Origin: an uncultured Anaerosolibacter sp. | GTDB lineage: Bacteria; Bacillota_A; Clostridia; Peptostreptococcales; Thermotaleaceae | Direction: 5' to 3' | Length of the DNA stretch: 18,283 nt | Assembly (NCBI GenBank): GCA_937948705.1 | Contig: CALECF010000112.1 | Location: 1-18,283, forward strand | Shown here: piece after piece, positions 1 through 15,664 of the stretch | How the letters are laid out: each line of letters starts with the position of its first letter | Position numbering within the stretch: the first letter of the stretch is position 1 | Translations under genes and position numbers: made by a program | The notes under the pieces: model-generated | What the model was told of the DNA's origin: nothing | What the model saw: only the letters and a program-made list of their open reading frames with translations | Databases searched by the model: none

Positions 1-73
1 ATGGCTTAGGGGTATCATCGGTGATTTCTTTCATCCTAGATCCTTTGCCACCACATAAGATTACGACTTTCAT
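1..73 (-). CDS. Sugar-nucleotide (NTP) transferase, N-terminal fragment
   Basis: Only the first 24 codons are in the window; the gene continues past the left edge. The peptide begins MKVVILCGGKGSRM and continues to TPKP. This is the N-terminal nucleotide-binding signature (GGxGxRM, then a PKP segment) of nucleotidyltransferases that make activated sugars, such as glucose-1-phosphate cytidylyl- or thymidylyltransferases. The start is supported by a GGGGGGAG ribosome-binding site about six bases upstream. It lies downstream of, and on the same strand as, a glycosyltransferase, but has its own sigma-K-type promoter at 147-174, so a role in spore-surface polysaccharide or glycoprotein synthesis is inferred. 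The exact sugar cannot be told from this fragment. Confidence 0.75.
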   Translation of the reverse strand, partial: MKVVILCGGKGSRMKEITDDTPKP

Positions 74-146
74 ATATCGCTCCCCCCAATAGATATTTTG
101 AATCATTTATTCGTTCATGAAAATTAATCGTCCAACCTTCTTAATT

Positions 147-174
147 TAATTTATGTAGACAAGTGAGTTTTTGT
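147..174 (-). promoter_or_regulatory. Sigma-K-type promoter for the nucleotidyltransferase gene
   Basis: On the minus strand, AC at 174-173 (context AACA) is followed by exactly 17 bases and then CATAAATTA at 155-147. This matches the sigma-K consensus as I know it from Bacillus: mACm, 16-17 bases, CATANNNTA. It lies about 75 bases before the start at 73. The -35 context GTAACAA is identical to that of the promoter at 1375-1402. Confidence 0.6.
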
Positions 175-255
175 TACTGTAGATTTAATGATTTAATGGA
201 GGAGGTTACTGAAGTTCAAAAGACGAATCCACCCACATGATCCTATGAAAGAAAA

Positions 256-286
256 TTGACAGGTTATTCATATTACACCCTGTCAA
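256..286 (-). terminator. Probable rho-independent terminator of the glycosyltransferase gene
   Basis: TTGACAGG (256-263) and CCTGTCAA (279-286) form a perfect 8-bp stem with a 15-base loop. On the minus strand the stem is followed by TTTTCTTTC, so it terminates leftward transcription 35 bases beyond the glycosyltransferase stop. There is no T tract on the plus strand. The long loop makes this a moderate call. Confidence 0.5.
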
Positions 287-320
287 CGAAACGACCTTAT
301 CGACATCTTCTGTGTCTCAA

Positions 321-1313
321 TTATATTAGGGAAGCGTAAACCTCCAGTACCTTCTTAGAAATTCTATGCCATGTGAAATGCTCCTCAATATAATTACATA
401 AATCTGGTGTAGGCTGCTTATGAAGGGCTGACATGGTTGCATTGTAAATTGAATTGACATTTGATGGATTACAATAGTTTGCATAGTGTGCCAATATTTC
501 TTTAGCGGAGCCAATCTCGGTAGATACAACATTACAACCAGCAATGCCAGCTTCTAGACTGGCTAGGCCAGGGTACTCTATCCAACTAGGGAGTACATGG
601 ACCAATGCCCCTTTATACAGGGACTTCAGCGCCTCTCTTTTTATATCTTGCAAAATCATAATGTTCTCTTTTTTTTGATTTATGCATTCCTTATAATATT
701 GTTTGTCATTTATTGAACCAACCAACAGAATAGAAATTCCTTCTTTGGACATCGCTTTCAAAAGATTTAATTGATTTTTTTGAGGATGGATTCTTCCTAC
801 ACAAAGAATATATTCCCTGATACCGTATTTATCTCTTATATAATCTTTATTACCATTCTTAAAGCTCTCGTCCACACCATAGGGGATAATGACATATTTA
901 GTATCTATCTGATAATTTTTTTTGATAAGCTCTACTTCTCCCATGGCATGAGGTAAGTACACGTCGCAATTTTCAAATAAGTATTTTCTTTTGACCTCGC
1001 TTTTTTCCCATGCTTCCTTTTGCGTATTTTGATGGGTCTGCATGTAGTAATCTCGTAAGTCCCAATAGATAGGCGTCAAAACAACTTTTTTCCTATACCT
1101 TTGGGCATTCTTCATAAACCCATAGCTTTCCCGCGTTCTGACCGTGTTAAATAGGTGGATAAGATCATAACTTTTCACATTGATATTTTCATCGGTACAA
1201 ACATCAATTTTTATGCCGAGGGACTGCAGGTGCTTTCGTAAATTTAAAAATACAATGCTATCTCCTGCAACATTATTCATAAAGTCCTTTCGAATCTGAA
1301 ACAGTATTTTCAT
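321..1313 (-). CDS. GT-B fold glycosyltransferase (GT4-like)
   Basis: This 330-residue protein has the layout of a short family-4 glycosyltransferase. The N-terminal Rossmann half starts MKILFQIRKD and has a loop with AGDS (16-19), where the acceptor-binding glycine-rich loop normally lies. The hinge contains IIPYGVDESF (142-151). The C-terminal donor-binding half has VGRIHPQKN (172-180) and PSWIEYPGLASLEAG (242-256). The latter contains the retaining-enzyme E-x7-E pair, E246 and E254. No signal peptide or membrane segment is visible, so it is probably a cytoplasmic enzyme transferring a sugar from a nucleotide donor to a glycan or protein. An AGGTGG ribosome-binding site precedes the ATG. 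A sigma-K promoter upstream suggests late mother-cell expression and a spore-surface substrate, which is inference; donor and acceptor are unknown. Confidence 0.85.
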   Translation of the reverse strand: MKILFQIRKDFMNNVAGDSIVFLNLRKHLQSLGIKIDVCTDENINVKSYDLIHLFNTVRTRESYGFMKNAQRYRKKVVLTPIYWDLRDYYMQTHQNTQKEAWEKSEVKRKYLFENCDVYLPHAMGEVELIKKNYQIDTKYVIIPYGVDESFKNGNKDYIRDKYGIREYILCVGRIHPQKNQLNLLKAMSKEGISILLVGSINDKQYYKECINQKKENIMILQDIKREALKSLYKGALVHVLPSWIEYPGLASLEAGIAGCNVVSTEIGSAKEILAHYANYCNPSNVNSIYNATMSALHKQPTPDLCNYIEEHFTWHRISKKVLEVYASLI

Positions 1314-1374
1314 TGAACAGCCACCTAACTTCCCTAGAATTTTAGGTCATTTAGACAAAATAAATCCCTTATAT

Positions 1375-1402
1375 TAGCCTATGATGAAGTATTTTACCTT
1401 GT
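1375..1402 (-). promoter_or_regulatory. Sigma-K-type promoter for the glycosyltransferase gene
   Basis: On the minus strand, AC at 1402-1401 (context AACA) is followed by 17 bases and CATAGGCTA at 1383-1375, matching mACm-N17-CATANNNTA at every fixed position. It is about 60 bases upstream of the start at 1313. It shares the extended -35 context GTAACAA with the promoter at 147-174. Confidence 0.6.
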
Positions 1403-1458
1403 TACTTATTTTAAAATAGAATCTTTCAAGAATGTTTCAGATGAATGGATGGAATCCA

Positions 1459-1488
1459 GTCATTTTTTGCACTTTTCTTTTATACATT
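1459..1488 (+). promoter_or_regulatory. Sigma-E-like promoter for the first propeller/coiled-coil gene
   Basis: GTCATTTT (1459-1466), a 14-base spacer, then TATACATT (1481-1488). This resembles the sigma-E pattern GTCATATT, 13-15 bases, CATACAnT, with one mismatch in each box. The predicted transcript would start near 1495, upstream of the ATG at 1525 and downstream of the ATG at 1432, so it supports the shorter protein. Single-gene consensus matches in AT-rich DNA can arise by chance. Confidence 0.4.
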
Positions 1489-1524
1489 ATAAATGGGACA
1501 CTATTAAAAGAGGAGGTGGTCGCT

Positions 1525-2994
1525 ATGAAGAGGAATCCTTTATATCAGTATATTCATTTTCATTCATCTGAATATGTCTATATCTTTTATAAAATAGATG
1601 ATGGATTGTTTGTAAGGATCCTTAAAGACAATCATGAGTTTTCAAATAAAAAAATATCAGATAATGTGATGGATTTCGCCGTTGAAGTGGATGAATTAGG
1701 CATATTTCATCTTGTATGTTTAGCATTAAATGGTGAGCTAGTATACTGGAAAAATCGCGAATTCCATTGGCATCACAGAATTCTCACAAAGTACGATAGC
1801 TCGTTTTACAAATTTAAGGGGTTGAAGCTCTTTCTTTGTCACCAGAAAATTCATATACTTTTGGCTATGGCAAATGAATTGAATCCTGAGTTGTGGACCC
1901 TAAAGCATCACTATTGGAACAATACGGTATGGCATAATAAAAAGATATGTGAAATGAACTGTGGAAAATATGATCATCCTTACCAAGGAGATATTGATAA
2001 GAATGACCATATTCATATTGTTTATAAGTCCAGACAGAATGGAAAAACCCAAATCTACTATAGCAAATTTAACATACTACATAACATGTGGAGTACACCA
2101 CAAAAAATGAGTACTTTATCCAAAGAAAACAATCATCCCTTCATTTTCTGTGATCACGAGAACGGGCTACATTTGGTATGGTCTTGTTTAGAAAATGGTA
2201 GTTATGAAATCCTATATAGACATGATCAAAATAGTCCTACGCCTAAAGCTAATTGGTCTGAGGCTGCTAAACTCTCTTTAGAGAATTCCAACTGTACCCA
2301 CCCCCTCATATTAGAATGTGATGACGAACTAAAGATTTTATGGAAACAAAACAATGATTATTATATTGGAAGGTTAAGCCCTAATGAACGTTCTGTAGAT
2401 GAGGCTATGCTGCTATCCATGCCTGGTGGTGAAAGGCTTTTCCTCATCTCTGTCATTGGTCATACATATAAATTATATCCATATGTAAAGCTCATTCTAG
2501 GTTATGGCGTTGCCGATGATAAAGGTATGTATATTTTAGGTCTAGATGACATTCGGAACGACAAAACTTCTTTTGACGACCAAGGCCCATATCATGAAGG
2601 TCACTCTGCATTCTATACGAATCATGATGATTTGACTTCCCATACAACCACTAGGGTATCATCTGGGAAGTTTCGGTCCAAAGGCAGTGTTGAAGACAAT
2701 TCACAGATTGGAAACAAGAATGAGGCCCAAACTATGGGTGATTCTAACATAAACACAAGCTATTCATCTGAGGATATAGGAAATCTTTCACTTACTCCTC
2801 AGGATCTAATAATAAAGATCGGTGTGATAGAAGGCAAAATAGAGAAGGTGTATGACCAATTGACATACTTAACAGAGAAAATGGAAGTTATAGCTCCAGC
2901 ACTATCTACTTTGAGTGAGCAGGGAATTCAACTACAGGAGTATATGGCTACCATACGCAATGAAAAAAACGGGTTATTTCGCTGGCTCAAATAG
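1525..2994 (+). CDS. Propeller-like repeat protein with C-terminal coiled coil (uncharacterised)
   Basis: I do not recognise a named family. The 489-residue protein has repeated blade-like segments of the form D-x-x-G-x-x-H-L-V-[WYC], followed about ten residues on by a Y-rich strand and often WS. Examples are at about residues 50-75, 155-185 and 209-245. A polar, low-complexity linker (about 345-425) leads to a heptad-like coiled coil (about 430-475) and the C-terminus GLFRWLK. It has no signal peptide or membrane helix from the chosen start. The open frame extends to an ATG at 1432, but the ATG at 1525 has an AGGAGGTGG ribosome-binding site and lies after the sigma-E-like promoter. A second gene with the same architecture lies at 4088. 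A structural or scaffold protein of the spore surface is inferred from context. Confidence 0.8.
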   Translation: MKRNPLYQYIHFHSSEYVYIFYKIDDGLFVRILKDNHEFSNKKISDNVMDFAVEVDELGIFHLVCLALNGELVYWKNREFHWHHRILTKYDSSFYKFKGLKLFLCHQKIHILLAMANELNPELWTLKHHYWNNTVWHNKKICEMNCGKYDHPYQGDIDKNDHIHIVYKSRQNGKTQIYYSKFNILHNMWSTPQKMSTLSKENNHPFIFCDHENGLHLVWSCLENGSYEILYRHDQNSPTPKANWSEAAKLSLENSNCTHPLILECDDELKILWKQNNDYYIGRLSPNERSVDEAMLLSMPGGERLFLISVIGHTYKLYPYVKLILGYGVADDKGMYILGLDDIRNDKTSFDDQGPYHEGHSAFYTNHDDLTSHTTTRVSSGKFRSKGSVEDNSQIGNKNEAQTMGDSNINTSYSSEDIGNLSLTPQDLIIKIGVIEGKIEKVYDQLTYLTEKMEVIAPALSTLSEQGIQLQEYMATIRNEKNGLFRWLK

Positions 2995-3046
2995 AATTTA
3001 AAATAATCTATATTAACCAGTGAGTACTTATCATTTCCCATGGGTT

Positions 3047-3083
3047 AAAAAAATAGATGTTCTCATTGAGAACATCTATTTTT
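3047..3083. terminator. Bidirectional terminator between converging genes
   Basis: TAGATGTTCTCA (3054-3065) and TGAGAACATCTA (3067-3078) are perfect inverted complements around one base. They are flanked by a run of seven A on the left and five T on the right, so a T tract follows the stem on either strand. It sits between the stop of the rightward gene (2994) and the stop of the leftward gene (3087) and would end both transcripts. Confidence 0.85.
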
Positions 3084-3086
3084 GTT

Positions 3087-3902
3087 TTAGAAGCCTATTC
3101 CAGGTCCTGTGATAAAGTCATCGAGTTGTGGCGGGAAGAATGCTGGTGGCAATTCTTCATTGAAATCTTCACAAACTGGTCTATCTGGTCTTCTCTCACA
3201 TGGAGCTGGTGGTGGGCAGAAGCCAAATGCAGGAATGACTAGCTGTACTTCTAGCTCACACTTGATTACGTTGTAAATACCAACTGTGAATTCAGCACAG
3301 CAGACATTTTCATAAGGATCATATGCGTCACATGAGTTATTACAATCATCCCTAACTACTCTTGCATCCAATACCCTTGCTACAATTTCTAATTTGATGA
3401 TTTCTTCGTCAATCGTTTCTCTTCCAGTTTCTCTAATAATTGCAGCAGGCTCTGGACAGTATAGTGGGCCAACTGTCTCACTTCTTCTAAGCAATAGTTC
3501 ATTGTCTGTGGACACTGTACCATCATCATAGACTACGTCATATAAGATTCTTAATTGGTAGGTATAACTGATTAACTTCCTATTTGCGTCACCAGGGATA
3601 GCTCTTCTGTTGATTACTCTGAATGATCCAGGAACAATTCCTTCTACTCTGGCATTAATAATGTCATCGGCGCTGCAGTCAATTCTAAAACGAAGATTTG
3701 AATCGAAAATTATTCCCTGATCTAGATCCTCTTGCTCGCAATCGCCAACAAGGCATAATCTTAATAGACAAGAGTCATATACTTTTGGTATTTGAACACA
3801 TACTAGTTCGCATGCATTTCCAAACTGCTCCCTTAATTCTTCTGGAATAACACCAGGTGTGTATAAACTGATTCCACACCCTGATGGAGTTTGTCTGTAC
3901 AT
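3087..3902 (-). CDS. Cysteine-rich protein, probable spore coat/exosporium component
   Basis: The protein has 271 residues and 16 cysteines, at 9, 31, 35, 45, 50, 55, 76, 149, 187, 191, 201, 202, 215, 229, 235 and 244. It is otherwise acidic and rich in beta-type sequence, and the tail is rich in proline and aromatic residues. It has no signal peptide or membrane helix. Conspicuous segments are VQIPKVYDSCLLRLC (36-50) and CPPPAPC (229-235). This composition fits disulfide-cross-linked coat or exosporium proteins of clostridia, but I cannot name the family. A GGGGGA ribosome-binding site precedes the ATG, and an excellent sigma-K promoter lies about 75 bases upstream, which is the best support for a late spore-coat role. 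It is flanked by two paralogous propeller/coiled-coil genes on the opposite strand. Family assignment is inference. Confidence 0.75.
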   Translation of the reverse strand: MYRQTPSGCGISLYTPGVIPEELREQFGNACELVCVQIPKVYDSCLLRLCLVGDCEQEDLDQGIIFDSNLRFRIDCSADDIINARVEGIVPGSFRVINRRAIPGDANRKLISYTYQLRILYDVVYDDGTVSTDNELLLRRSETVGPLYCPEPAAIIRETGRETIDEEIIKLEIVARVLDARVVRDDCNNSCDAYDPYENVCCAEFTVGIYNVIKCELEVQLVIPAFGFCPPPAPCERRPDRPVCEDFNEELPPAFFPPQLDDFITGPGIGF

Positions 3903-3975
3903 ACATTTTCCCCCTTCTTTTTAATAAATTTTATAGAATACATTTTTTAGCAGTTAAAACTGTCTTTTCTAATTG

Positions 3976-4004
3976 TATATTATGTATTGCTTATCTTTTT
4001 GGTG
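3976..4004 (-). promoter_or_regulatory. Sigma-K-type promoter for the cysteine-rich coat-like gene
   Basis: On the minus strand, CACC (4004-4001) carries AC at 4003-4002. It is followed by 17 bases and CATAATATA at 3984-3976, a full match to mACm-N17-CATANNNTA. The start codon at 3902 is about 65 bases beyond the expected transcription start. This is the third such element in the locus, all with the same 17-base spacing. Confidence 0.6.
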
Positions 4005-4087
4005 ATAAAAAATTTAATCCTCTCGTAAACTGCTCTAACATATTGTTATCTCTGTAATAATATATTTAATTAAGGCGGGTGATGTGA

Positions 4088-5611
4088 ATGATTCAAGAAA
4101 AAAAATTAGATATAATCTTAACTTCATCTATGAACAGCATGAAATTTTTCTCCCTAAATCAAAACGGTGTTGGATATCGAAATATAGACAATACAGATAT
4201 TGTCAATCTTTATGATGGAAGTATTATGGAATACGATTTGGATGTTGATGGACAGGGGAACATAGGCTTGGTTTTTTTGGACAGTACAGGAAAGTTGCAT
4301 TATTACTTTTACGATGGTCGAAAATGGAGTACTTATTCCATCCATCACTTTAACCTTCTATTCGAAGAAATAAAAGATCTGAGCATACGATTTTCAGTTC
4401 ATACTCCAATCATTACTTTTTGCAGCCGCAATCATTCAAGTTCAAATCAGTGGTCTATTAGCACCTTTCAGAAACTAGAAAATAGTTGGAAAAGAGATGT
4501 CATAGCAAAGGTATACTTAAGTGCAGATACTGTCCCTTATAAGATTGTAAAAGATCGAAAAGACAATTTATATCTCTTTTATCTAAGTAATCATAATATC
4601 GTATACGATATCAATATTATGATTTTTCATCAACAGTCTCAAACATGGTCTCAACCACTTTTCCTAAACAACTGTATATTTATTAAATACTTTCATATAG
4701 ATGCCCTTGTTGATGCCAATGGTGGAGTACATGTCATATGGATTGATAAATATAAAAAAAATTATTGCATCAAATATAGCTACCGAGCATCCTTTAAGGG
4801 AGCTCAGTCAAATCCGTCTGTTATCATGGAGTTTACTGAACCCCTTGTATGGACCCAACTCTATATGACACAGCAGTCTCTTTATGTCTACGGCCTGCAA
4901 AAAGAAAGGGTTTACAGTTCTTCTAAACCTTTAAAAAATACCTTTGGGCTTTCAAAGTGGCAACAGACAACAGCCTTAAGCTACGAATATGATCAATTGA
5001 CACTTTATAAATCGTTAGGTAGTAAAAGGGATTATATGGCCAATTATATACTTACGCCCTCAGGAGATGAATATAGACCTATTCCCGTAGACGAAATAGA
5101 GACTTCGCCCCAAAATAGCTTTATTCCCTTAACCAATCATCAAGGTGATGAATTTCAGCGGCCCATTCATATGGAAAAACTTCAGGAGTCCATGGTCAAT
5201 CATTCCAATGAAAGTAATGATATTCTCCGCTACAAAGGAGAATTGTTTAAGAAGAATCAACAGCTTGAAGTAAATCAAGGTCTTTTGAAATCTTTGCAAG
5301 GTGAATTATCTTTTATGAAGCAGGAAATAAGAACCCTTCAGGAGCAGCATAAAAAAAGCACTCAGTTTTTGAATGACGCTGCTGAAACCCACAGGAAGTT
5401 TCATGAGCGCTTGGACCATCTGAATCAAATCTTTGAAAGTAGATTGTCTCAGATGGATCTCTCTGAAGTGAAAAAAAAGCTGGAGATTCTCTCCCAGGAA
5501 GTGGAGAAAAGCAGAACCGATGTTACAGAATCCTTGATGACAAACAAAGAGTTGAAGGAAGCCGTAGAGGCCCTTCAAAGGGCCGGTTTGTTCCGAAAAA
5601 TTTTCAGTTAA
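4088..5611 (+). CDS. Propeller-like repeat protein with long C-terminal coiled coil (uncharacterised)
   Basis: This 507-residue protein shares its architecture with the gene at 1525. Blade-like segments with VDGQGNIGLVF (53-63), KDRKDNLYLFY (155-165) and VDANGGVHVIW (208-218) are each followed by strand-like stretches, and the first two end in WS. A proline- and asparagine-rich linker covers about 325-375. A long coiled coil covers about 378-500, rich in L, E, K and Q at heptad spacing. The last residues, AGLFRKIFS, parallel GLFRWLK at the end of the other protein. No signal peptide or membrane helix is evident. The ATG follows AAGGCGGGTG by about seven bases. No convincing promoter was found in the 185 bases shared with the divergent coat-like gene, though CATATTGT at 4039-4046 is a weak sigma-E-like -10. 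Function unknown; a spore-surface structural role is inferred. Confidence 0.8.
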   Translation: MIQEKKLDIILTSSMNSMKFFSLNQNGVGYRNIDNTDIVNLYDGSIMEYDLDVDGQGNIGLVFLDSTGKLHYYFYDGRKWSTYSIHHFNLLFEEIKDLSIRFSVHTPIITFCSRNHSSSNQWSISTFQKLENSWKRDVIAKVYLSADTVPYKIVKDRKDNLYLFYLSNHNIVYDINIMIFHQQSQTWSQPLFLNNCIFIKYFHIDALVDANGGVHVIWIDKYKKNYCIKYSYRASFKGAQSNPSVIMEFTEPLVWTQLYMTQQSLYVYGLQKERVYSSSKPLKNTFGLSKWQQTTALSYEYDQLTLYKSLGSKRDYMANYILTPSGDEYRPIPVDEIETSPQNSFIPLTNHQGDEFQRPIHMEKLQESMVNHSNESNDILRYKGELFKKNQQLEVNQGLLKSLQGELSFMKQEIRTLQEQHKKSTQFLNDAAETHRKFHERLDHLNQIFESRLSQMDLSEVKKKLEILSQEVEKSRTDVTESLMTNKELKEAVEALQRAGLFRKIFS

Positions 5612-5615
5612 ACAT

Positions 5616-5658
5616 AAAAGGAATGTTATTGTGTGAGCTCATAACATTCCTTTTTTCC
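5616..5658. terminator. Strong terminator after the second propeller gene
   Basis: AAAAGGAATGTTAT (5616-5629) pairs perfectly with ATAACATTCCTTTT (5641-5654) around an 11-base loop, and the T run extends to about 5656 on the plus strand. On the minus strand CCTTTTATG follows the stem, so it probably also stops the leftward gene ending at 5664. Confidence 0.85.
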
Positions 5659-5663
5659 ATGTA

Positions 5664-5936
5664 CTATCTATTTATTTTGATATATTCTTTTTTATTGTCT
5701 GCTGATGTGGTTATTTTATAAAGTCCCTGATAGTTGATTTTTGCTTGCTTAATAAGCTTTATTCCATCCTCTAAATCTTTCTCATAGATATAAATACCTG
5801 TATTACATGATTTGCCTACTGCTCTGGGTGCTTTCCTAAAAGTGCATTTCACATTATGTCTTCGAAAGAGTTCTTCTATATAATATCCATGATAGTTAGA
5901 TGAAAAAACAAAAATATAACTCTCCTCATATTGCAC
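5664..5936 (-). CDS. DUF3343-like small protein (putative Se/S carrier-like)
   Basis: The 90-residue protein resembles DUF3343 proteins: a short alpha/beta protein starting with a beta strand (SYIFVFSS), a helix (YHGYYIEELFRRHNV), then a KAPRAVGKSCNTGIYI segment. There the conserved arginine and the single C-G-type turn normally lie. Here the turn is SCNTG, with an asparagine where SCG is usual. Database members are labelled putative Se/S carrier-like, but their function is not established. The start is a GTG; AAGGAG lies about ten bases upstream and a stop lies three codons before it in frame, so no longer start exists. A TATAAT-like box lies at 5972-5967 on the minus strand without a good -35. 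It is isolated between two terminators. Confidence 0.65.
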   Translation of the reverse strand: MQYEESYIFVFSSNYHGYYIEELFRRHNVKCTFRKAPRAVGKSCNTGIYIYEKDLEDGIKLIKQAKINYQGLYKITTSADNKKEYIKINR

Positions 5937-6049: not shown

Positions 6050-7114
6050 TTATTGAAAATCCTTGTAAATGTATTCAGATGTCATGAGCTGAAGTAATGC
6101 ACCATACTCGATATTGAATCTAACTTCATCTCCAACATTATATACGGATGTACAGTCGGTCACATCTACGATCAGATGATCACTACTGGCTCCAAGAATC
6201 ACCATATTAGGGTCCAATGGAATGATATTCTGAACAGTGATATCCTGTCTTCCGATGGCAAGAATTGCTCTTTTACGCAATCCTTTATCTTCGAAGGTTG
6301 GTTTATTGCCAAAAGCATCCATTCCTATTTCACCAATAGGAATAGAAGGCTTTTCCTTTAGCTCAACTACCTCTGTAACTAGGGTAAAAGCATCTTGATA
6401 GGTATCTTTTATTGGGTCCCCATAGGCTGTTTCTCTCCCTAAGACAATAGATTCTCCTAAGCGCAAATGATTAATTCGATCAGGCATCTCTCCTTTTTCC
6501 AAGAGATATAGGCTGCTGGAATTTCCTCCTGATACGATATTGAGAGATAGATTGAACCTTGCTTCAATGACTTCTGCTAGTTCCGCCAATCGCCCTAAAT
6601 TAGTATTATTTGGAATGACACCGCCGTAGCATGTTAAATTTGTGCCAATACCCAACAAATTGATATTATCAAGTTTTATGATTTCAGCAATGGTATCTTC
6701 CATTTGGTCCTGCCATATGCCCTCCCGTAAGTCCCCCAGATCAATCATTAATATGATGTTATGCATTTTTTCTAATTCCTTGGCCGCTGCATCTAAGGCT
6801 GCAATGGTTTTTATCTCAGAATTCAAACTAATATCGGCATATTGTACTGTTTCTCTCGCTTGACTAATCATAGGCAATCTCAGCAATAGCTTCTGGGCAT
6901 TCATCTCCTGGAGCTTCATTAGGTTTTCAATTCTAGAATCAGCTAGCATCGTAACGCCACTGTCAACAAGGGCCTGGGCAATCACAGGTATTCCACAAAA
7001 CACCTTTGTTACTGCAGCCACATCGATACCTTTCTCTCCACATAATTTGGTCAACGTGAGAGTATTGTGTCTGATTTTATCGATATTGACCTCAATTCTA
7101 GGACAAATCTTCAC
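6050..7114 (-). CDS. orr: Ornithine racemase (PLP-dependent, alanine-racemase fold)
   Basis: Orr interconverts L- and D-ornithine, supplying the D-isomer used by the aminomutase OraSE. The 354-residue protein has the fold-type III barrel of the YhfX/alanine racemase family. The PLP-binding lysine is K37 in AAVTKVFCG near the N-terminus, and a glycine/serine-rich phosphate-binding segment SGGNSSS lies at about 204-210. Length and sequence fit clostridial Orr rather than classical alanine racemase, and its place as the last gene of the ornithine operon decides the substrate. The start is GTG with AGGAGGAG about five bases upstream. A T-free hairpin (7141-7164) separates it from the preceding gene, so its level may differ from the rest of the operon. 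A terminator follows. Substrate assignment is by family and context. Confidence 0.9.
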   Translation of the reverse strand: MKICPRIEVNIDKIRHNTLTLTKLCGEKGIDVAAVTKVFCGIPVIAQALVDSGVTMLADSRIENLMKLQEMNAQKLLLRLPMISQARETVQYADISLNSEIKTIAALDAAAKELEKMHNIILMIDLGDLREGIWQDQMEDTIAEIIKLDNINLLGIGTNLTCYGGVIPNNTNLGRLAELAEVIEARFNLSLNIVSGGNSSSLYLLEKGEMPDRINHLRLGESIVLGRETAYGDPIKDTYQDAFTLVTEVVELKEKPSIPIGEIGMDAFGNKPTFEDKGLRKRAILAIGRQDITVQNIIPLDPNMVILGASSDHLIVDVTDCTSVYNVGDEVRFNIEYGALLQLMTSEYIYKDFQ

Positions 7115-7140
7115 ACGATCTCCTCCTATTCCTAAATCTA

Positions 7141-7164
7141 TAGCCGGGAATTTTTTCCCGGCTA
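7141..7164 (-). other. Intercistronic hairpin between the MutL-like gene and orr
   Basis: TAGCCGGGAA (7141-7150) and TTCCCGGCTA (7155-7164) are perfect 10-bp inverted complements around TTTT. On the minus strand no T run follows (CTATAGATTTAGG), so it is more likely an mRNA stability or processing element, or a weak attenuator, than a full terminator. It begins five bases past the upstream stop. Confidence 0.7.
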
Positions 7165-7168
7165 ATAG

Positions 7169-8527
7169 CTAGTTGATATTCATGCTTTGCTTCATCAAAT
7201 TTAAAGCAGCTTCAGGGTATCTCTTGGACAGTACCCCGAGGGATGCCATGATATAATCATTATCTATTAGTATCTGAGCCTCTTTTGTAGGAAGTAAACT
7301 ATCTCCTTTATTGTGCTGGGCGATCTGCTTTAAAATCTCTAATCTCCCAGGGAGTCTCGTCAGGGCACCTCCTGTTCCAACAATCCACTTGATATCAGTA
7401 AGATCCTTGCCTTCTGCAAGTGTTTTCTTGCCTGCTGGTCCATAGAGATGTCTAAACTTACCTACATGTCGATCCATAGCTGTTAACACTGCTTCTACAG
7501 TAAGAATCTCCACAAATTTCTTCAATTCATCTGTATCTGGTATTGGTTTGTGCCTACCCATCAATTCCTCAATATCGCAACCCATTTGTTGAGAAAGCTT
7601 ATCTTTCCCAATTCTTTCAACAATATTGGACATATTTACATAGACACCCAGATCACCTTCTACGGTTCTCTTGGCTTCAGGTTCGGGACTGATTAATATC
7701 CTATTCACTTCTTCACTACCCGCAGTTACTGAGTGAACGTCGGTGGTAGCGCCACCAACATCAAGGGTGACCAAATCACCAATGGCTTCTTTTAAAAGCT
7801 TAGAAGCCTCCATCACAGCGCCTGGTGTAGGAATAATAGGGCCAGTAACCAATTCTCGTACCTTCGCCATACCTGGGGCATGAATAATATGATCCTCAAA
7901 GGCATCTTGAATGACCTTTCTGGTTGGCTCAATATTGAGTTGATCAATTTTAGGATACACATTTTCCACAACATATAACTGATTAGACTTATTCTTGAAA
8001 ATCTCTTTTATTTCTTCTTGGTTTTCAACGTTGCCAGCATAAATAATGGGTACATGGGTATCCATATCAGCAATAAGCTCTGCGTTATAGAGGGCTGTGT
8101 CCCGTTCTCCATAGTCGACACCACCGGCAATTAAAATCAGATTCGGGTGGATCTCCTTAATTTTACCAAGGTCAGTTCTTCTTAATTTCCCTGCAGTAAC
8201 ATTATGGATGATGGCTCCCGCTCCTAGGGCAGCCTCTTTTGCAGCCCGAACGGTCATGTCATAGACCAGACCATGAACTGTCATTTTTAACCCACCTGCT
8301 GCACTGCTGGTAGCCAACATTTCATCATAGGATATCTCGTCTATCCCAAGCTTCTTCTTAAGATCGTCCATTGCACCCTGGAGTCCTATATTCACATCTC
8401 CCTCTAAAACTGTTGTTGGCGCTTGACCTTGACCAAGAAACTTAGGGTGGTTTGTATGAATATCCGCAAAAGCGTTTACCACGGTTGTAGTACTTCCTAT
8501 CTCAGCAACTAATACATTAATTTTCAT
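7169..8527 (-). CDS. MutL/GlmL-family ATPase, probable mutase accessory protein
   Basis: The 452-residue protein belongs to the MutL/GlmL family linked to B12-dependent glutamate mutase; it is unrelated to the DNA-repair MutL. It shows the actin/Hsp70-like ATPase signature: phosphate loop 1 in VAEIGSTTT (7-15), phosphate loop 2 in DVGGATTD (256-263), and an adenosine-type segment IVGTGGALTRLPG (about 386-398). AGGVDYGERDTA (134-145) is also typical of the family. It lies 16 bases after oraE and before orr, with GAGG eight bases before the ATG. By analogy with ASKHA-fold reactivases of B12 enzymes, it may remove damaged cobalamin from OraSE or assist its assembly. That role is inferred and not shown by sequence. 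Confidence 0.85.
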   Translation of the reverse strand: MKINVLVAEIGSTTTVVNAFADIHTNHPKFLGQGQAPTTVLEGDVNIGLQGAMDDLKKKLGIDEISYDEMLATSSAAGGLKMTVHGLVYDMTVRAAKEAALGAGAIIHNVTAGKLRRTDLGKIKEIHPNLILIAGGVDYGERDTALYNAELIADMDTHVPIIYAGNVENQEEIKEIFKNKSNQLYVVENVYPKIDQLNIEPTRKVIQDAFEDHIIHAPGMAKVRELVTGPIIPTPGAVMEASKLLKEAIGDLVTLDVGGATTDVHSVTAGSEEVNRILISPEPEAKRTVEGDLGVYVNMSNIVERIGKDKLSQQMGCDIEELMGRHKPIPDTDELKKFVEILTVEAVLTAMDRHVGKFRHLYGPAGKKTLAEGKDLTDIKWIVGTGGALTRLPGRLEILKQIAQHNKGDSLLPTKEAQILIDNDYIMASLGVLSKRYPEAALNLMKQSMNIN

Positions 8528-8543
8528 GTTAATGCCTCGTTTC

Positions 8544-10757
8544 CTACTTATTTCCTAACATCTCATTTCTTCTCTTTACCAGGAATGTGGCTACATTGAT
8601 TCCCTTTGTACCTCTTCCAAAACCTGCATCCATTCCGTATTTCACAGCGATTTCAGGTGTTACTTGGGTTCCACCGGCACAGATCATGATTCTATCTCTA
8701 ACGCCTTTTTCTACTGCATAATCATGAATTCTCTTCATGTTTTTATAGTGAATATCATCATGGCTAATGATGGTTGAAGCCAATATTGCATCTGCATTTA
8801 ATTCAATTGCAGCATCTACAAGCTTTTCAATTGGGCATGAAGTGCCAAGATATTCAACCTCGATACCCCATTTTTCAATACCGCCATGCTTAATGTCGAT
8901 CACTTCTCTCATACCTACAGAATGCTCATCTTCTCCTACTGTACCAGCGACTACTTTCATAGGCTTCGCATTCATTTCTTCCCATAGTTCTTCATTTGAC
9001 ATTATTTCTGGTTCGTCAGGCACTACGATCGTGTTCAAATCAATATCAAATCCAACAGTACCTTTTAATTGAACTCTTGTAGCTTCAGAAGGATGCATCT
9101 CTTCAATATGCATGACTTCCACATCACTCAATCCAAGCTTTTTACCCACCTCGATTGCAGCATATTCTGCTACTCTTCTTGATGTTGGTAAAAGTACCTC
9201 TACTTGAACAATACCGTCACCCAGCCATTGAACTTCAGGCTTGATAAGGGATGTGCTTCTATATTTTTCAGACTCATCCAGTCTTGTATATACATTGTCA
9301 CTTTCATCCAATTCATCAATAAATATAATCTTTTCTGGATTTTCAAAAGTGCCGCCATTGATAAGATTTGAAGGACTCTCCACTGCACTTGGATCATACT
9401 GCGCTACGTTATTATGACCAAAGTGAGCTGTTACTGGTGCCATATAATCTTCATCTCTTTCAAATACAGTTCCGAAGCCTAAACCACCATCAATTTTTCT
9501 TCCGATTCCATCGCCATGTCTTTCTGGATACATACCAGAATCAACAAAGAATCCTTTTTCTACTGCCTCGAAGTAGCCACCTTCTTGGATAATCTCTTCT
9601 AGGTATAGAACCGTTCTTTCTTTTAATTCTCTAACTTGATCTCTTAGGAAGCCTTCTTTTTTTAATTCTACCATTTCCATTAAGGAATCTAGTATTGTCA
9701 AAGTTTGCTTTGCAGTATCGCATGCTTCAATGTTGTACATATGCCATGGCACGTTTCTACCTTCATCTGGAGTAATGGTTGATTGAATATCCGCACTTGT
9801 TAATCTGGATAGCAGCATATTCAATACATGGGTTACTGTCGCTTCTCTAGAGGAGGAAGTAATATACTTTGTATTCATTTGTGCTCTCATCTTATACTCA
9901 TCAAAAAGTTCTCTTAGTGCAACAGCATAAGGTAAATCATACTTTAAGCTAGGTGCTGGTGCAGCAGTTGGAGGTACCGTTGATAAACAGATATTCTCCT
10001 TCTTCATTCCAACTTTATAGGAAAACAAGGAATTAATACCATGTTGTACCATCAGTTCAGGCATAACCTTCCAAGCATCTCTAGCTGTGGCGTTGGCATT
10101 ATGGGCCCCATCAATTTGTGCCATGTTCGCCCAAGTCATGATATTTTTTGCTTCTGCAGCATCTACAAAGGATCTAACCATGTTGATGTTTCTATAGAGT
10201 ATATTGTATTGAGGATCTTGATGGGCACCGTTTACGCCTTCCTCTGCAAACATAACTGCAATATCAGGACCTGCTACACCACTAACATAAGAATGGTAAT
10301 TAATTGGACGTCCCACTTCTTCTTCGATCAAATCAAGAGCTTTTCTTTGAGCCCTTACAATTTTCCTAGAAACAGCGATACCACCGATTCCCTGTGGTGT
10401 TCCTTCAATCAATCCATCATAGTGAGATTGACCTGCGGTTCGAATAACCATGATATGGTCCGCACCATGCCATGCTGCCATTCTCATTCTACGGATATCA
10501 TCTTCAAATCTTCCAGATGCAATCTCAGTAGTGATCGTATGAATTGGTTGTGGATCAATATTTCCCATATAGGCAGCAGATGGAATCGGGATAGAATTTT
10601 TCAAAGGTTCTGAACAATCATTGTATGTGAAAGGTCCCATTTGGAGGTTCTCAACTTTCTTTCTCCAAGTCCAACCTCTTCGTTTCGGTGTGTATTTATC
10701 AAGATCTTTTAGTATTTCTCTAACATTTATTTTTTCATTTACTTTTAACTGCTCCAT
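8544..10757 (-). CDS. oraE: D-ornithine 4,5-aminomutase, large subunit (B12 and PLP)
   Basis: OraE with OraS moves the terminal amino group of D-ornithine to C4, giving 2,4-diaminopentanoate, with adenosylcobalamin and PLP. The 737-residue protein has an N-terminal TIM-barrel region (about 60-400), a linker, and a C-terminal Rossmann-type B12 domain (about 598-735). The base-off cobalamin motif D-x-H-x-x-G is D610, H612 and G615. K623 in IDIKHGG lies 11 residues after H612, the same spacing as between the cobalamin histidine and PLP lysine in lysine 5,6-aminomutase and C. sticklandii OraE, so K623 is very likely the PLP lysine. The ATG overlaps the oraS stop as TAATG, with AAAGGAGGGG upstream, so the two subunits are translationally coupled. 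Confidence 0.96.
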   Translation of the reverse strand: MEQLKVNEKINVREILKDLDKYTPKRRGWTWRKKVENLQMGPFTYNDCSEPLKNSIPIPSAAYMGNIDPQPIHTITTEIASGRFEDDIRRMRMAAWHGADHIMVIRTAGQSHYDGLIEGTPQGIGGIAVSRKIVRAQRKALDLIEEEVGRPINYHSYVSGVAGPDIAVMFAEEGVNGAHQDPQYNILYRNINMVRSFVDAAEAKNIMTWANMAQIDGAHNANATARDAWKVMPELMVQHGINSLFSYKVGMKKENICLSTVPPTAAPAPSLKYDLPYAVALRELFDEYKMRAQMNTKYITSSSREATVTHVLNMLLSRLTSADIQSTITPDEGRNVPWHMYNIEACDTAKQTLTILDSLMEMVELKKEGFLRDQVRELKERTVLYLEEIIQEGGYFEAVEKGFFVDSGMYPERHGDGIGRKIDGGLGFGTVFERDEDYMAPVTAHFGHNNVAQYDPSAVESPSNLINGGTFENPEKIIFIDELDESDNVYTRLDESEKYRSTSLIKPEVQWLGDGIVQVEVLLPTSRRVAEYAAIEVGKKLGLSDVEVMHIEEMHPSEATRVQLKGTVGFDIDLNTIVVPDEPEIMSNEELWEEMNAKPMKVVAGTVGEDEHSVGMREVIDIKHGGIEKWGIEVEYLGTSCPIEKLVDAAIELNADAILASTIISHDDIHYKNMKRIHDYAVEKGVRDRIMICAGGTQVTPEIAVKYGMDAGFGRGTKGINVATFLVKRRNEMLGNK

Positions 10758-11134
10758 TATTTTTCCCCTCCTTTAAACATGGTTACAGCCTCGTCCCAAT
10801 GCTTACCTTCCATCAATTCGAGACCAGCTTGTCGAAGCGGAATATTCTTTTCCTTAGAAACCTTGTAAATAACATGACCAGCACCTTTGCCCATTAGCCC
10901 TCGATCCATGACACCATCAACAATGGTTTTTGCTTCTAAGCTTGAGAACCCCATTCTTAGTAATACTGATCGCTCAATGGCAGGTGTAGTATTCTTCTTC
11001 GCTAAATCTACCAAAGGATCTACTACCTGCTCCATTAATCCCCAAAATTTTTGCTTTAATGCTTCATCAGACAATGATGCCAGGTGTTTTCTTCTCTCTT
11101 GGAAATCGTCTTCCCGTACAATATAACCTTTCAT
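10757..11134 (-). CDS. oraS: D-ornithine 4,5-aminomutase, small subunit
   Basis: OraS is the 125-residue partner of OraE in the heteromeric aminomutase. It is mostly helical and highly charged, with no membrane or signal segment. Its length is close to that of the C. sticklandii subunit (about 120 residues). The C-terminal part (IPLRQAGLELMEGKHWDEAVTMFKGG in the last 30 residues) abuts the OraE start, and the genes share one base (TAATG). An AGGAGGG ribosome-binding site lies about eight bases before the ATG. The 86 bases upstream of it, after ortB, hold a hairpin but no clear promoter, so it is read as part of the ord operon. Identity rests on size, position directly before oraE and general resemblance. 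Confidence 0.93.
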   Translation of the reverse strand: MKGYIVREDDFQERRKHLASLSDEALKQKFWGLMEQVVDPLVDLAKKNTTPAIERSVLLRMGFSSLEAKTIVDGVMDRGLMGKGAGHVIYKVSKEKNIPLRQAGLELMEGKHWDEAVTMFKGGEK

Positions 11135-11176
11135 TCATTTCCCTCCTAATTCTCATAGATTTTTTATGGGTCCTAT

Positions 11177-11202
11177 AGGGAGTAAACAATTGCATACTCC
11201 CT
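11177..11202 (-). other. Intercistronic hairpin between ortB and oraS
   Basis: AGGGAGTA (11177-11184) and TACTCCCT (11195-11202) form a perfect 8-bp stem with a 10-base loop. No T tract follows on the minus strand, so it is not a standard terminator. It could stabilise or process the mRNA so that thiolase and mutase cistrons accumulate differently. This is inference. Confidence 0.6.
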
Positions 11203-11220
11203 TTACCCTTTCATATGTTT

Positions 11221-12639
11221 CTATAATTTAATGTTTCTCTCTTCTATGGCTTCTTTCACAAAATCATATGATGACTTTGTTTCTTGCACTAGAAACTCCA
11301 TGTCCGCTTCAGTTATCTTCTCTATTCCACGGATTTCAAAGCAGTTTTTAATATATGATTTTCTAATCTTATTCATATCTATATCTCTTGCTTTAATGAA
11401 GCTTGGATGCTCAGGTAATATAATGTTTATACCTGGAATTTCTACCTCAGGGTTTCCAAATCGAATCTCAATACCATTGTCACGGGCAAAGGAAAGTTGC
11501 GCCTGAATGTGCTTTCCTGCCCCTGTATACTCAGTCTCCTGTACGACAATAATCTGATTTTCATCTAGCTCCTGAGCAATGCTAAAAGCAGCAGCTAAAG
11601 ATGTATTCCCAGCGGGTCCTCTTTCTAATCCCTCAAGCTGTGCTAGGGCTTCTGTCATGTAGAACACCTCGCCTTGAGAAACGGTTACATAACGATCCAT
11701 GTATCTCAATGGTCTAGCCGCTGATCTAGGAACGTCAGAACGATCTGGCCAGGTAGAAAATGGCATCCCAAAGCCTGTATGTCCTGTTGTAAATGATTTC
11801 TTATTGAACTGTTCATCAGATGCCATGTGAAGTCCTTGAAGACTTACGCTGGCTCCGACTATACTTACGTTCTCTGCCCCTGCCTTCATTAGTCCTCGGG
11901 CTGTACCCGTTAGATTACCGCCACCAGCATTGGTACATACGACAACATCCGGATCTCTTCCAATCTTTTCTCTAAACTGCATGGCCAATTCATACCCTAA
12001 TGTCTCTACCCCTGCAATACCGAAAGGCGTATATAATGAGGCATTAAAGTATCCCGTTTCCTCTAGTAGTTTCAAGAAGATATAGAATAATTCTGGACCA
12101 ACTGTCAGTTGAACAACCTCAGCACCGTAAGCTTCACATTTTCTTGCCTTCTCGATAATCTCTGGCTGGCCTATTCCTTTGCTATCATAACATTCCTGTA
12201 CGATGATGCACTTTAAACCATGCATGGCAGCTTGACTAGCGACAGCCGCTCCATAATTTCCACTTGTAGCTGCGATGACGCCTTTATATCCAAGTTTTTT
12301 AGCATGATATACAGCATTGGCCGCTCGTCTGGCCTTGAAGCTCCCTGATGGATTCGAGGCTTCGTCTTTTATAAAGATTCTTGCCCCTTTCCCCTCAGGT
12401 GCCATCTTTCTTGCTAAGGCGGTTAAATTCTTTAGTTCAAGGATAGGTGTATTTCCTACGCCTGTTGCCCCTTGAATTTTTTGCATCTCTTCAAGGGTAT
12501 ATCCCGTTTCTCTCATCATCTTCTCATAGTCAAAAGAAATGGAACCTGACTCAAACACAGCATAGTCGATGCCTACCGCTTGCTTCATAATTTCGTTTCT
12601 TCTTGCCATTAATCCTTGGTAACTCATATCCTTACTCAT
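11221..12639 (-). CDS. ortB: 2-amino-4-oxopentanoate thiolase, beta subunit (PLP)
   Basis: OrtB is the PLP-carrying subunit of the thiolase that cleaves 2-amino-4-oxopentanoate with CoA to acetyl-CoA and alanine (D-alanine in the characterised enzyme). The 472-residue protein is of the threonine synthase/tryptophan synthase beta fold (fold type II). The PLP lysine is K102 in NPSGSFKAR, and the glycine-rich phosphate loop is NAGGGNLTG. The frame could open at a GTG at 12648, but that GTG lies inside the AGGAGG ribosome-binding site. The ATG at 12639 is eight bases after it and is chosen. The gene overlaps the end of ortA by eight bases (ATGAGTAA), implying coupled translation of the two subunits. 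Confidence 0.95.
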   Translation of the reverse strand: MSKDMSYQGLMARRNEIMKQAVGIDYAVFESGSISFDYEKMMRETGYTLEEMQKIQGATGVGNTPILELKNLTALARKMAPEGKGARIFIKDEASNPSGSFKARRAANAVYHAKKLGYKGVIAATSGNYGAAVASQAAMHGLKCIIVQECYDSKGIGQPEIIEKARKCEAYGAEVVQLTVGPELFYIFLKLLEETGYFNASLYTPFGIAGVETLGYELAMQFREKIGRDPDVVVCTNAGGGNLTGTARGLMKAGAENVSIVGASVSLQGLHMASDEQFNKKSFTTGHTGFGMPFSTWPDRSDVPRSAARPLRYMDRYVTVSQGEVFYMTEALAQLEGLERGPAGNTSLAAAFSIAQELDENQIIVVQETEYTGAGKHIQAQLSFARDNGIEIRFGNPEVEIPGINIILPEHPSFIKARDIDMNKIRKSYIKNCFEIRGIEKITEADMEFLVQETKSSYDFVKEAIEERNIKL

Positions 12640-12940
12640 GGACCTCACCTCCTGCTAGGATTGCTCTCGCTTGAATCCCTATTTGCAGAAGTTCTGGGAT
12701 GAACTTCCCATAATTGTGGGTATATGCAGGGTGAATTTCCACAAGCTCTCCCTCAACTCTTCTTCCTGTGATTGTGATAACTTCAGCGGATTGACCTATT
12801 TCGGCATCTGTCTGAATAAATCCTTTCACCCAAGATTCCAGAGGAACCTTTGCTGTATCTTCAGGAACTTGAGGAGCTCTTTCCTCACTTGTTAGAACTA
12901 TATTGTAGATTTTAACCCAATCTCCTCGTGTGGCCTTCAT
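12632..12940 (-). CDS. ortA: 2-amino-4-oxopentanoate thiolase, alpha subunit
   Basis: OrtA is the 102-residue partner of OrtB. It is a small, largely beta protein with the family-typical stretch ERAPQVPEDTAKVPLESWVKGF (about 20-41) and a conserved HPAYTHNYGKFIPEL segment (about 70-84). It has no cofactor motif; PLP is carried by OrtB. It starts nine bases after the ord stop. A rather weak GGTAGGGGA ribosome-binding site overlaps that stop, so coupling to ord translation is likely. Its last codons overlap the start of ortB. The identification is firm because of the sequence and its position between ord and ortB. Confidence 0.95.
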   Translation of the reverse strand: MKATRGDWVKIYNIVLTSEERAPQVPEDTAKVPLESWVKGFIQTDAEIGQSAEVITITGRRVEGELVEIHPAYTHNYGKFIPELLQIGIQARAILAGGEVHE

Positions 12941-12949
12941 AAAATTCCC

Positions 12950-13996
12950 CTACCTTTTTATTAAATCTCTCATGTCGCCCATGATCGCCCGTGGTACCGG
13001 TAAATCTAACATTGTCTTTAATCCTGGATCAGCGTTGATTACATGAGGAATCATATTTACACACATTGCTATTGTTCCAAGTCCACCCTCGACTTCTGGC
13101 TTGTTGGCCATATGAATTGCTGGTGTTCCCTTAATTGTAATATAGTCACCTGTCTCAGTACCTTCCATTTCTGGCTCAATTTGTTGAGGGTGAATCATAT
13201 CAATTTTTACTTCTCCATCAACATATCCTTGTCCAGTCATATTTACACCTGCCACATTACCCGCAGCTGCAAATCCATAAGGTGATTTTCTGTCAATGGT
13301 TGTAACGATAGGCTTCATTTGCTGCTCAATTTTTTCAACCTTCCAACCGATGGCATCTCCGATCATTCCGATAGATTCTGCAAAGCCAACATGTCCAGCT
13401 AATGTACCATCATTTACACCCTTTTCAAACTCTGCTACAGTTATACCAACACCTTGTTCTTCCATTACGGCTGGTCCAAATGGAGATAAACTATTTACAC
13501 GCTTTGCTTCAATATGCTCAACATCTACCATACACCCAGTTAGGCAAACAACCAATAAATCCATCATAAGTCCAGGGTTGATTCCTGTTCCAAGAATTGA
13601 AACACCGTTTTCTTTCGCGATTTTATCTAACTCAGCAGCCAACTCTGGATTTTGTGCTTGTGGATAAGCCATTTCTTCTGCTGTTGAAACCACATTTACT
13701 TTCTTTTCTAATACTGCTTTTAGTCTCGGGAAAGCACTTTTTGTAAATGAATCTGTAGCACATAGACAAACATCGCAGCTTCCCTCAGTAACAACTTCAT
13801 CAATATTTGGATTAATAATTACTTCAGGGCGCTCTCCTCTTTCTAATCCTAATACATCGTACATACTTCTACCCACTCTAGCTTCATTTCTATCGCAAAC
13901 ACCTACGATGTCAACACCCTTTTTGTTTATAAGCATTTTTGCCATACCACTACCCATTGCACCAAATCCCCAAATTGCTACTCTTACGTTTTTCAT
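12950..13996 (-). CDS. ord: 2,4-diaminopentanoate dehydrogenase
   Basis: Ord oxidatively deaminates 2,4-diaminopentanoate to 2-amino-4-oxopentanoate with NAD(P)+, releasing ammonia. The 348-residue protein begins with a Rossmann fold carrying GFGAMGSG (10-17), a G-x-G-x-x-G-x-G dinucleotide loop directly after the first strand. The remainder resembles dihydrodipicolinate-reductase-like dehydrogenases, with the family segment GINPGLMMDLLVVCLTG at about 137-153. The start follows GGAGGTG by about eight bases. It is the first gene of the operon and sits about 37 bases after the predicted start of transcription from the sigma-54 promoter. The family does not settle whether NAD or NADP is used. 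Confidence 0.95.
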   Translation of the reverse strand: MKNVRVAIWGFGAMGSGMAKMLINKKGVDIVGVCDRNEARVGRSMYDVLGLERGERPEVIINPNIDEVVTEGSCDVCLCATDSFTKSAFPRLKAVLEKKVNVVSTAEEMAYPQAQNPELAAELDKIAKENGVSILGTGINPGLMMDLLVVCLTGCMVDVEHIEAKRVNSLSPFGPAVMEEQGVGITVAEFEKGVNDGTLAGHVGFAESIGMIGDAIGWKVEKIEQQMKPIVTTIDRKSPYGFAAAGNVAGVNMTGQGYVDGEVKIDMIHPQQIEPEMEGTETGDYITIKGTPAIHMANKPEVEGGLGTIAMCVNMIPHVINADPGLKTMLDLPVPRAIMGDMRDLIKR

Positions 13997-14193: not shown

Positions 14194-14243
14194 ATAAAAC
14201 GCAAGAATATTTGCATCCCGGTGCAAATATTCTTGCGTTTTAT
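14194..14243 (-). terminator. Long perfect hairpin ending the activator gene
   Basis: Positions 14194-14215 and 14222-14243 are perfect 22-bp inverted complements around TCCCGG. The stem begins in the stop region of the activator gene (stop at 14242-14240) and has TTTT at the distal end, then ATCG, so the T tract is short. It can fold in the glyA-activator transcript and probably terminates or stabilises it. The same DNA contains the paired activator sites described separately. Confidence 0.6.
14200..14237. promoter_or_regulatory. Paired upstream activating sites for the sigma-54 activator
   Basis: CGCAAGAATATTTGCA (14200-14215) and its exact reverse complement TGCAAATATTCTTGCG (14222-14237) lie with centres 22 bases apart, about two helical turns. 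Each is itself an imperfect palindrome of TGCAAA-type halves. They resemble the RocR upstream activating sequence of Bacillus as I recall it (TGCAAA...TTTTGCA). They sit about 165-205 bases upstream of the predicted operon start, a usual enhancer distance. Confidence 0.6.
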
Positions 14244-15637: not shown

Positions 15638-15664
15638 ATTTCCCTGCCTTCCCAATAAAAATGA

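Follow-up and report, generated by a model that had tools for sequence, protein, structure and literature searches.

A sigma-K-type promoter box conserved before a cysteine-rich protein gene and a CDP-sugar operon at a putative spore-surface locus of Anaerosolibacter and its relatives

INTRODUCTION

The outer layers of spores vary widely among spore-formers and are hard to detect from sequence alone. CdeC and CdeM are cysteine-rich proteins of the clostridial exosporium, and in Bacillus subtilis YfnH is a cytidylyltransferase and YfnG a cytidine diphosphate (CDP)-sugar dehydratase. The B. subtilis yfnHGF genes have been described as being under sigma-K and GerE (PMC517825), mutations in yfnHGFED were reported to alter the crust and the crust glycan layer (PMC7439481), and several clusters, yfnHGF among them, are presented as shaping the glycans of the crust (PMC7439481, PMC11708026). 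Here we describe a locus of an uncultured Anaerosolibacter sp. (contig CALECF010000112.1; the whole stretch analysed, 18,283 bases with 38 per cent G+C, is called the window) in which promoter-like boxes precede the genes for a sugar nucleotidyltransferase (NT), a glycosyltransferase (GT) and a cysteine-rich protein (cys). The boxes before NT and cys are kept in related genomes, and we consider it likely, judging from sequence comparison, that these two are sigma-K-type promoters giving late mother-cell expression of a spore-surface cysteine-rich protein and a CDP-deoxysugar operon.

RESULTS

Three boxes of one spacing in the window

An initial annotation of this DNA had proposed three sigma-K promoters of identical spacing, one each for NT, GT and cys. 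We found all three boxes at the proposed sites, on the minus strand and in the correct orientation, each combining AC at -35 with a CATANNNTA-type -10 element at a fixed gap. The single common spacing stood, except that the gap, counted between mACm and CATA, is N16 and not N17; likewise, the start coordinates were right and two of the end coordinates fell one base short. The measured distances to the start codons (73, 61 and 73 bases) agree with the 60-75 bases claimed, and the extended -35 context GTAACAA is indeed common to boxes 1 and 2. The boxes and the genes around them are as follows.

Box 1, positions 147 to 175, minus strand: sigma-K-type, AACA-N16-CATAAATTA; -10 end 73 bases 5' of the NT ATG.
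NT, positions 1 to 73, minus strand: sugar nucleotidyltransferase, first 24 codons only in the window, assigned from sequence.
Box 2, positions 1375 to 1403, minus strand: AACA-N16-CATAGGCTA; -10 end 61 bases 5' of the GT ATG; weakly supported.
GT, positions 321 to 1313, minus strand: group 1 glycosyltransferase, 330 amino acids, PF00534 with E 5.9e-19.
Box 3, positions 3976 to 4004, minus strand: sigma-K-type, CACC-N16-CATAATATA; -10 end 73 bases 5' of the cys ATG.
cys, positions 3087 to 3902, minus strand: cysteine-rich protein, 271 amino acids, 16 Cys.
prop1 (working name), positions 1525 to 2994, plus strand: 489 amino acids, divergent from GT, paralog of prop2.
prop2 (working name), positions 4088 to 5611, plus strand: 507 amino acids, divergent from cys, paralog of prop1.
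Fourth strict-pattern match, positions 1923 to 1951, minus strand: antisense within prop1, read as a coincidence.

The strict pattern, mACm-N16-CATANNNTA, was present in 3/16 upstream regions of the window (150 bases each), and among 3000 dinucleotide shuffles 34 gave one such match and none gave more, bearing out the claim that three upstream matches are improbable by chance; when gaps of N15-17 were allowed, 84/3000 shuffles gave one upstream match and again none gave more. Over the whole window we counted four strict matches; 300 whole-window shuffles averaged 0.25 and never exceeded 3. Because the fourth match falls antisense within coding sequence, the pattern alone is no proof; the counterpart of this match in a related locus (L001, at 11944) lies within the prop1 ortholog.

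Boxes 1 and 3 are conserved before orthologous genes

A profile search with cys found eight genomic loci, in Anaerosolibacter carboniphilus (identity 96 per cent), Thermotalea, an Anaerosolibacter metagenome-assembled genome, Anaerophilus, Marinisporobacter, a record titled Lutibacter sp. B2, and two Geosporobacter. With L006 left out as too short, the order prop2, cys, prop1, GT is conserved in seven relatives, and an NT ortholog lies beyond GT in 7/7 of them. Additional genes stand between prop1 and GT in some relatives, including a cys-like gene in L004, L007 and L008, and L008 has one extra gene between cys and prop1.

To all sets of upstream regions we applied one common expression, AC[AC]-N15/16-CATANNNT within 160 bases upstream, for which shuffles gave an expectation of 0.04 to 0.28 per set. 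The box preceded cys in 9/9 regions (expected 0.28) and in 6/6 further cys loci (expected 0.14); as the upstream sequence of L174 is that of L006, probably the same record, these make 14 distinct cys orthologs including that of the window, and box 3 is kept in 14/14. Before NT the box was found in 7/8 upstream regions, window included (expected 0.06). The exact TA ending occurs in 7/9 cys and 4/8 NT regions, the remaining ones ending in G or diverging further; 6/8 NT boxes end in TA or TG. Distant cys relatives of about 220 amino acids also carry the box, in 16/17 cases (expected 0.27; the 17 are those with a returned locus out of 19 genomes), and in a separate test 1000 shuffles of this set reached at most 3. 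The same expression matched before two sporulation genes of the clade, sigK (4/4 examined, the 5' part having been fetched in 4/7 genomes) and yabG (4/4, the gene being found in 4/7 genomes).

As controls of the sigma-E type we used spoIVA and spoIIIAA, whose upstream regions carried the box in 0/7 and 0/7 cases (0/14 together). It was likewise found in 0/24 regions before five neighbouring genes, in 0/9 before prop2 and in 0/8 before prop1; the antisense matches before prop2 (nine) and prop1 (one) are the cys and GT boxes read from the opposite side. Two further intended controls gave no usable result: DpaA yielded weak matches only, none above the cut-off, and CotJ showed no clear promoter. 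In alignments the AC and CATA parts are constant and the spacer is variable, and CATANTATG is common to the yabG boxes and those of several distant cys relatives. We counted 24 occurrences of a somewhat relaxed form of the box in the nine syntenic stretches (173,644 bases together), versus 9 of its reversed control. Scanning orthologous upstream regions, as the initial annotation had suggested, upholds two members of its three-promoter sigma-K set, boxes 1 (7/8) and 3 (14/14 distinct), which resemble those of yabG and sigK, and not box 2, found in 1/8.

Two more boxes of the sigma-K type were also seen in the related loci, AACA-N16-CATAACTTG before a glycosyltransferase-like gene (L003:16182-16210) and CACC-N16-CATATCATG before an NT-like gene (L006:3899-3927).

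The clade's sigma-K has the expected -35-reading residue

In the relatives' genomes the helix reading the -35 element is ISRSYVSR in 4/4 sigma-K proteins examined and ISQSYISR in 7/7 sigma-E proteins; the clade's sigma-K thus has the expected arginine, the choice of Gln in sigma-E versus Arg in sigma-K having been tied to -35 reading (PMC517825). The boxes before this clade's sigK and yabG have the same form as those of the window. The gap is 16 here and 15 or 16 in the distant cys relatives, and the optimum described for sigma-K is 15 plus or minus 1, with the elements delimited differently from here (PMC517825). A sigK piece lies about 29-40 kb from cys on the same contig in 6/7 relatives, and the two are on separate contigs in the seventh.

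Of the seven relatives only Thermotalea (L039) has an intact sigK gene; in 6/7 the gene is broken into separated pieces, as happens with elements of the skin type that are excised during sporulation. yabG is split in 3/4 of the relatives having it (G001:C8, G003:C5, G005:C61), and an element interrupting yabG has been reported (PMC10747680).

NT heads a putative CDP-glucose-type operon in most relatives

The NT ortholog of L001 resembles glucose-1-phosphate cytidylyltransferase (TIGR02623, 285.8 bits, below the cut-off of 300.25). A gene resembling CDP-glucose-4,6-dehydratase (RfbG-like) follows NT in 6/7 relatives, L003 being rearranged. In 4/7 (L001, L002, L004, L005) NT is followed by this RfbG-like gene and two GT-like genes, and in L007 and L008 by the RfbG-like gene alone, with no GT-like match behind it in the stretch examined.

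cys belongs to a family found only in spoIVA-bearing genomes of the sampled order

The precomputed accession PF27077 stands on 31/32 close database relatives of cys; searches of the Pfam and NCBIfam copies used matched nothing in cys itself, and a PDB sequence search with it gave no convincing relative (best E 0.46). Its predicted model has a mean pLDDT (predicted local distance difference test score) of 64, and we found no described function for the family. Among 198 genomes sampled from the order of A. carboniphilus we found a cys-type match in 32, of which 13 are full length and the rest cover the C-terminal part (in G068 only at E 4.8e-4). All 32 fall within the 88/198 genomes that match spoIVA (87 over the cut-off), with a hypergeometric value of 1.2e-13 that is uncorrected for kinship. 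The spoIVA match is in two pieces in two genomes: in G073:C28 they lie about 109 kb apart on one contig, and in G018:C1 they are adjacent, with stops inside both.

Among the best 120 of 320 matches, the distant relatives of about 220 amino acids come from Alkaliphilus, Natronincola, Anaerovirgula, Clostridium aceticum and others, and their public names are either hypothetical protein or, for several in UniRef, 'SipL SPOCS domain-containing protein'. In a profile comparison, 68 C-terminal residues connect these proteins with the cys family (E 1.1e-17), and the C-terminal module of the family also occurs in a few open reading frames (ORFs) of about 1,000-2,400 amino acids. Membership of cys in the SipL/SPOCS family was considered and rejected, given that there was no PF12673 match and negligible profile similarity: the window cys, the L008 ortholog and all 16 distant relatives searched lacked PF12673; the 27 places where PF12673 does match in the seven relatives include no cys gene; and hhalign of the cys family against the clade's SipL SPOCS domains gave a probability of 0.3-0.4 per cent.

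The prop genes and the rest of the window

The paralogs prop1 and prop2 evolve fast; both have a tail that resembles a coiled coil and finish in a short hydrophobic-basic stretch, for example GLFRKIFS. Neither had a Pfam match above the cut-off, and PDB sequence searches with the prop proteins gave coiled-coil-type matches to the tail only. Alignments of their upstream regions show conserved blocks, but these are not of the sigma-K type; control by sigma-E or SpoIIID was considered, and the blocks could not be assigned to either. One such region is the cys/prop2 intergenic region (3902-4088), where a second block nearer to prop2, reading AACATATTG ... TAATATATTT in the window, is conserved in relatives too.

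Farther along, positions 6050-13996 hold ornithine degradation genes (Ord, OrtB, OraE, a GlmL-related protein and Orr, from NCBIfam), together with probable OrtA and OraS genes, assigned by position. A PAS/sigma-54 activator lies at 14240-15655. Plasmid records gave no DNA match to window positions 1-5700.

DISCUSSION

Two of the three predicted promoters are kept in spore-forming relatives, before a sugar-making operon and a cysteine-rich family, and the locus is therefore most likely to be a small cluster of spore-surface genes. We think the following course the most likely. Boxes 1 and 3, with AC at -35, a 16-base gap and CATANNNTR at -10, would be read by sigma-K, and sigma-K RNA polymerase would transcribe cys and the NT operon late in sporulation in the mother cell. 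The cysteine-rich protein would be placed on the developing spore, and the NT operon, encoding a cytidylyltransferase, a CDP-glucose-4,6-dehydratase-like enzyme and glycosyltransferases, would make a sugar derived from CDP-4-keto-6-deoxyhexose. GT and the operon's transferases would then attach a CDP-deoxyhexose glycan to a surface layer of which the cys protein is a part. That the locus serves to build and glycosylate an outer layer of the spore, as suggested earlier, is plausible in view of the CDP-glucose-type operon after box 1 in 6/7 relatives and the spoIVA match of 32/32 cys-type genomes.

Several observations weigh against this reading. The related genomes are non-independent samples; the reversed pattern occurred once across all sets, in one of the six further cys loci; and the L001 orthologs of NT and of the dehydratase score under the NCBIfam curated cut-offs of their best profiles (TIGR02623 and TIGR02622). 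A matrix trained on yabG and sigK ranked box 3 9th of 36,498 positions and boxes 1 and 2 469th and 1,130th, but built from seven promoters it was too narrow to be relied on. Counted over the complete A. carboniphilus genome, the strict pattern and its reversed control each occurred 72 times. As there is no genome-wide excess, conservation had to decide, and the evidence lies in position and conservation. Among 70/72 classified matches in that genome 15 were intergenic and 6 stood before an ORF with a ribosome-site-like stretch, versus 3 and 1 in the 30/72 reversed matches examined, a small difference. When the 15 intergenic matches were inspected by eye, a gene for a Tyr-rich cupin joined the list. 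The seven genes comprise cys; this cupin, a Cu/Zn superoxide dismutase with a Tyr-rich start and a DUF4230 protein, all three assigned by Pfam; two small Gly-rich proteins that fall into no family; and a gene identified by eye as an aspartokinase. The equal counts of 72, and the fourth window match inside a gene, speak for all three boxes being chance matches in AT-rich DNA; we regard this as very improbable, given that 0/3000 shuffles had two upstream matches and that boxes 1 and 3 are conserved. We also think it unlikely that these mother-cell promoters are used chiefly by sigma-E, whose -10 has the same CATA. In its favour, the sigK gene of C. difficile carries one sigma-E-like and one sigma-K-like promoter (PMC3789822), and yabG is described under two mother-cell regulators, one of them possibly sigma-E (PMC10681294), so that yabG is not a pure sigma-K control. 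On the other hand, the conserved boxes have AC at -35 and a gap of 15-16 bases, the region upstream of spoIVA reads ATATT-N14-CATATATA in L060, L064 and L066 and shows a -10 without a clear ATATT in the other four, and the sigma-E-type controls are without the AC-type box throughout.

Box 2 is a separate matter. Among eight GT upstream regions the full box is present only in that of the window, which also counts against the reading of three promoters, and in L004, L007 and L008 GT sits behind a cys paralog that runs in the same direction (that of L008 resembles cys with 36 per cent over 59 residues); L003 has no box before GT. By this evidence only boxes 1 and 3 would be promoters, box 2 a chance match and GT read from another promoter, a view that is compatible with sigma-K control of cys and the NT operon. 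Against it, L005 has CACC-N16-AATATAGTA, and CATAGNNTA is retained in L001 and L002 with the gap unchanged, although their -35 reads AGC (GC instead of AC). We find the matter evenly balanced. GT is probably a functional part of the system, its own promoter being uncertain.

Sigma-K-type expression from boxes 1 and 3 is ordinary biology and well inferred; the order-wide box on a family without an assigned function is the more interesting part. We tentatively suggest, at somewhat less than even confidence, that cys represents an order-wide family of spore-surface proteins under sigma-K control whose function is undescribed. The C-terminal module of this family would anchor or link an outer spore layer bearing a CDP-deoxyhexose glycan, and prop1 and prop2 would be further components. 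A box retained before diverging genes offers a way into outer spore layers.

Compared with described systems, the boxes are like the sigma-K promoters of C. difficile and B. subtilis in having AC at -35 and a CATA-type -10 (PMC3789822). The cys protein, compared by description only, is like the clostridial exosporium proteins reported as cysteine-rich and located at the spore surface (PMC6101409); its likeness to SipL/SPOCS spore coat proteins is confined to the UniRef name of several distant relatives. A cytidylyltransferase was not named in the clostridial spore literature among the matches listed. By analogy in gene content, B. subtilis yfnHGF is the nearest known system: the NT operon of the relatives has a pair of cytidylyltransferase-like and dehydratase-like genes comparable to that of yfnHGFED, and differs in having the cysteine-rich family and the prop pair alongside. 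The box points here to a cysteine-rich family with distant relatives in spore-formers and to a CDP-sugar operon that parallels the Bacillus crust operon.
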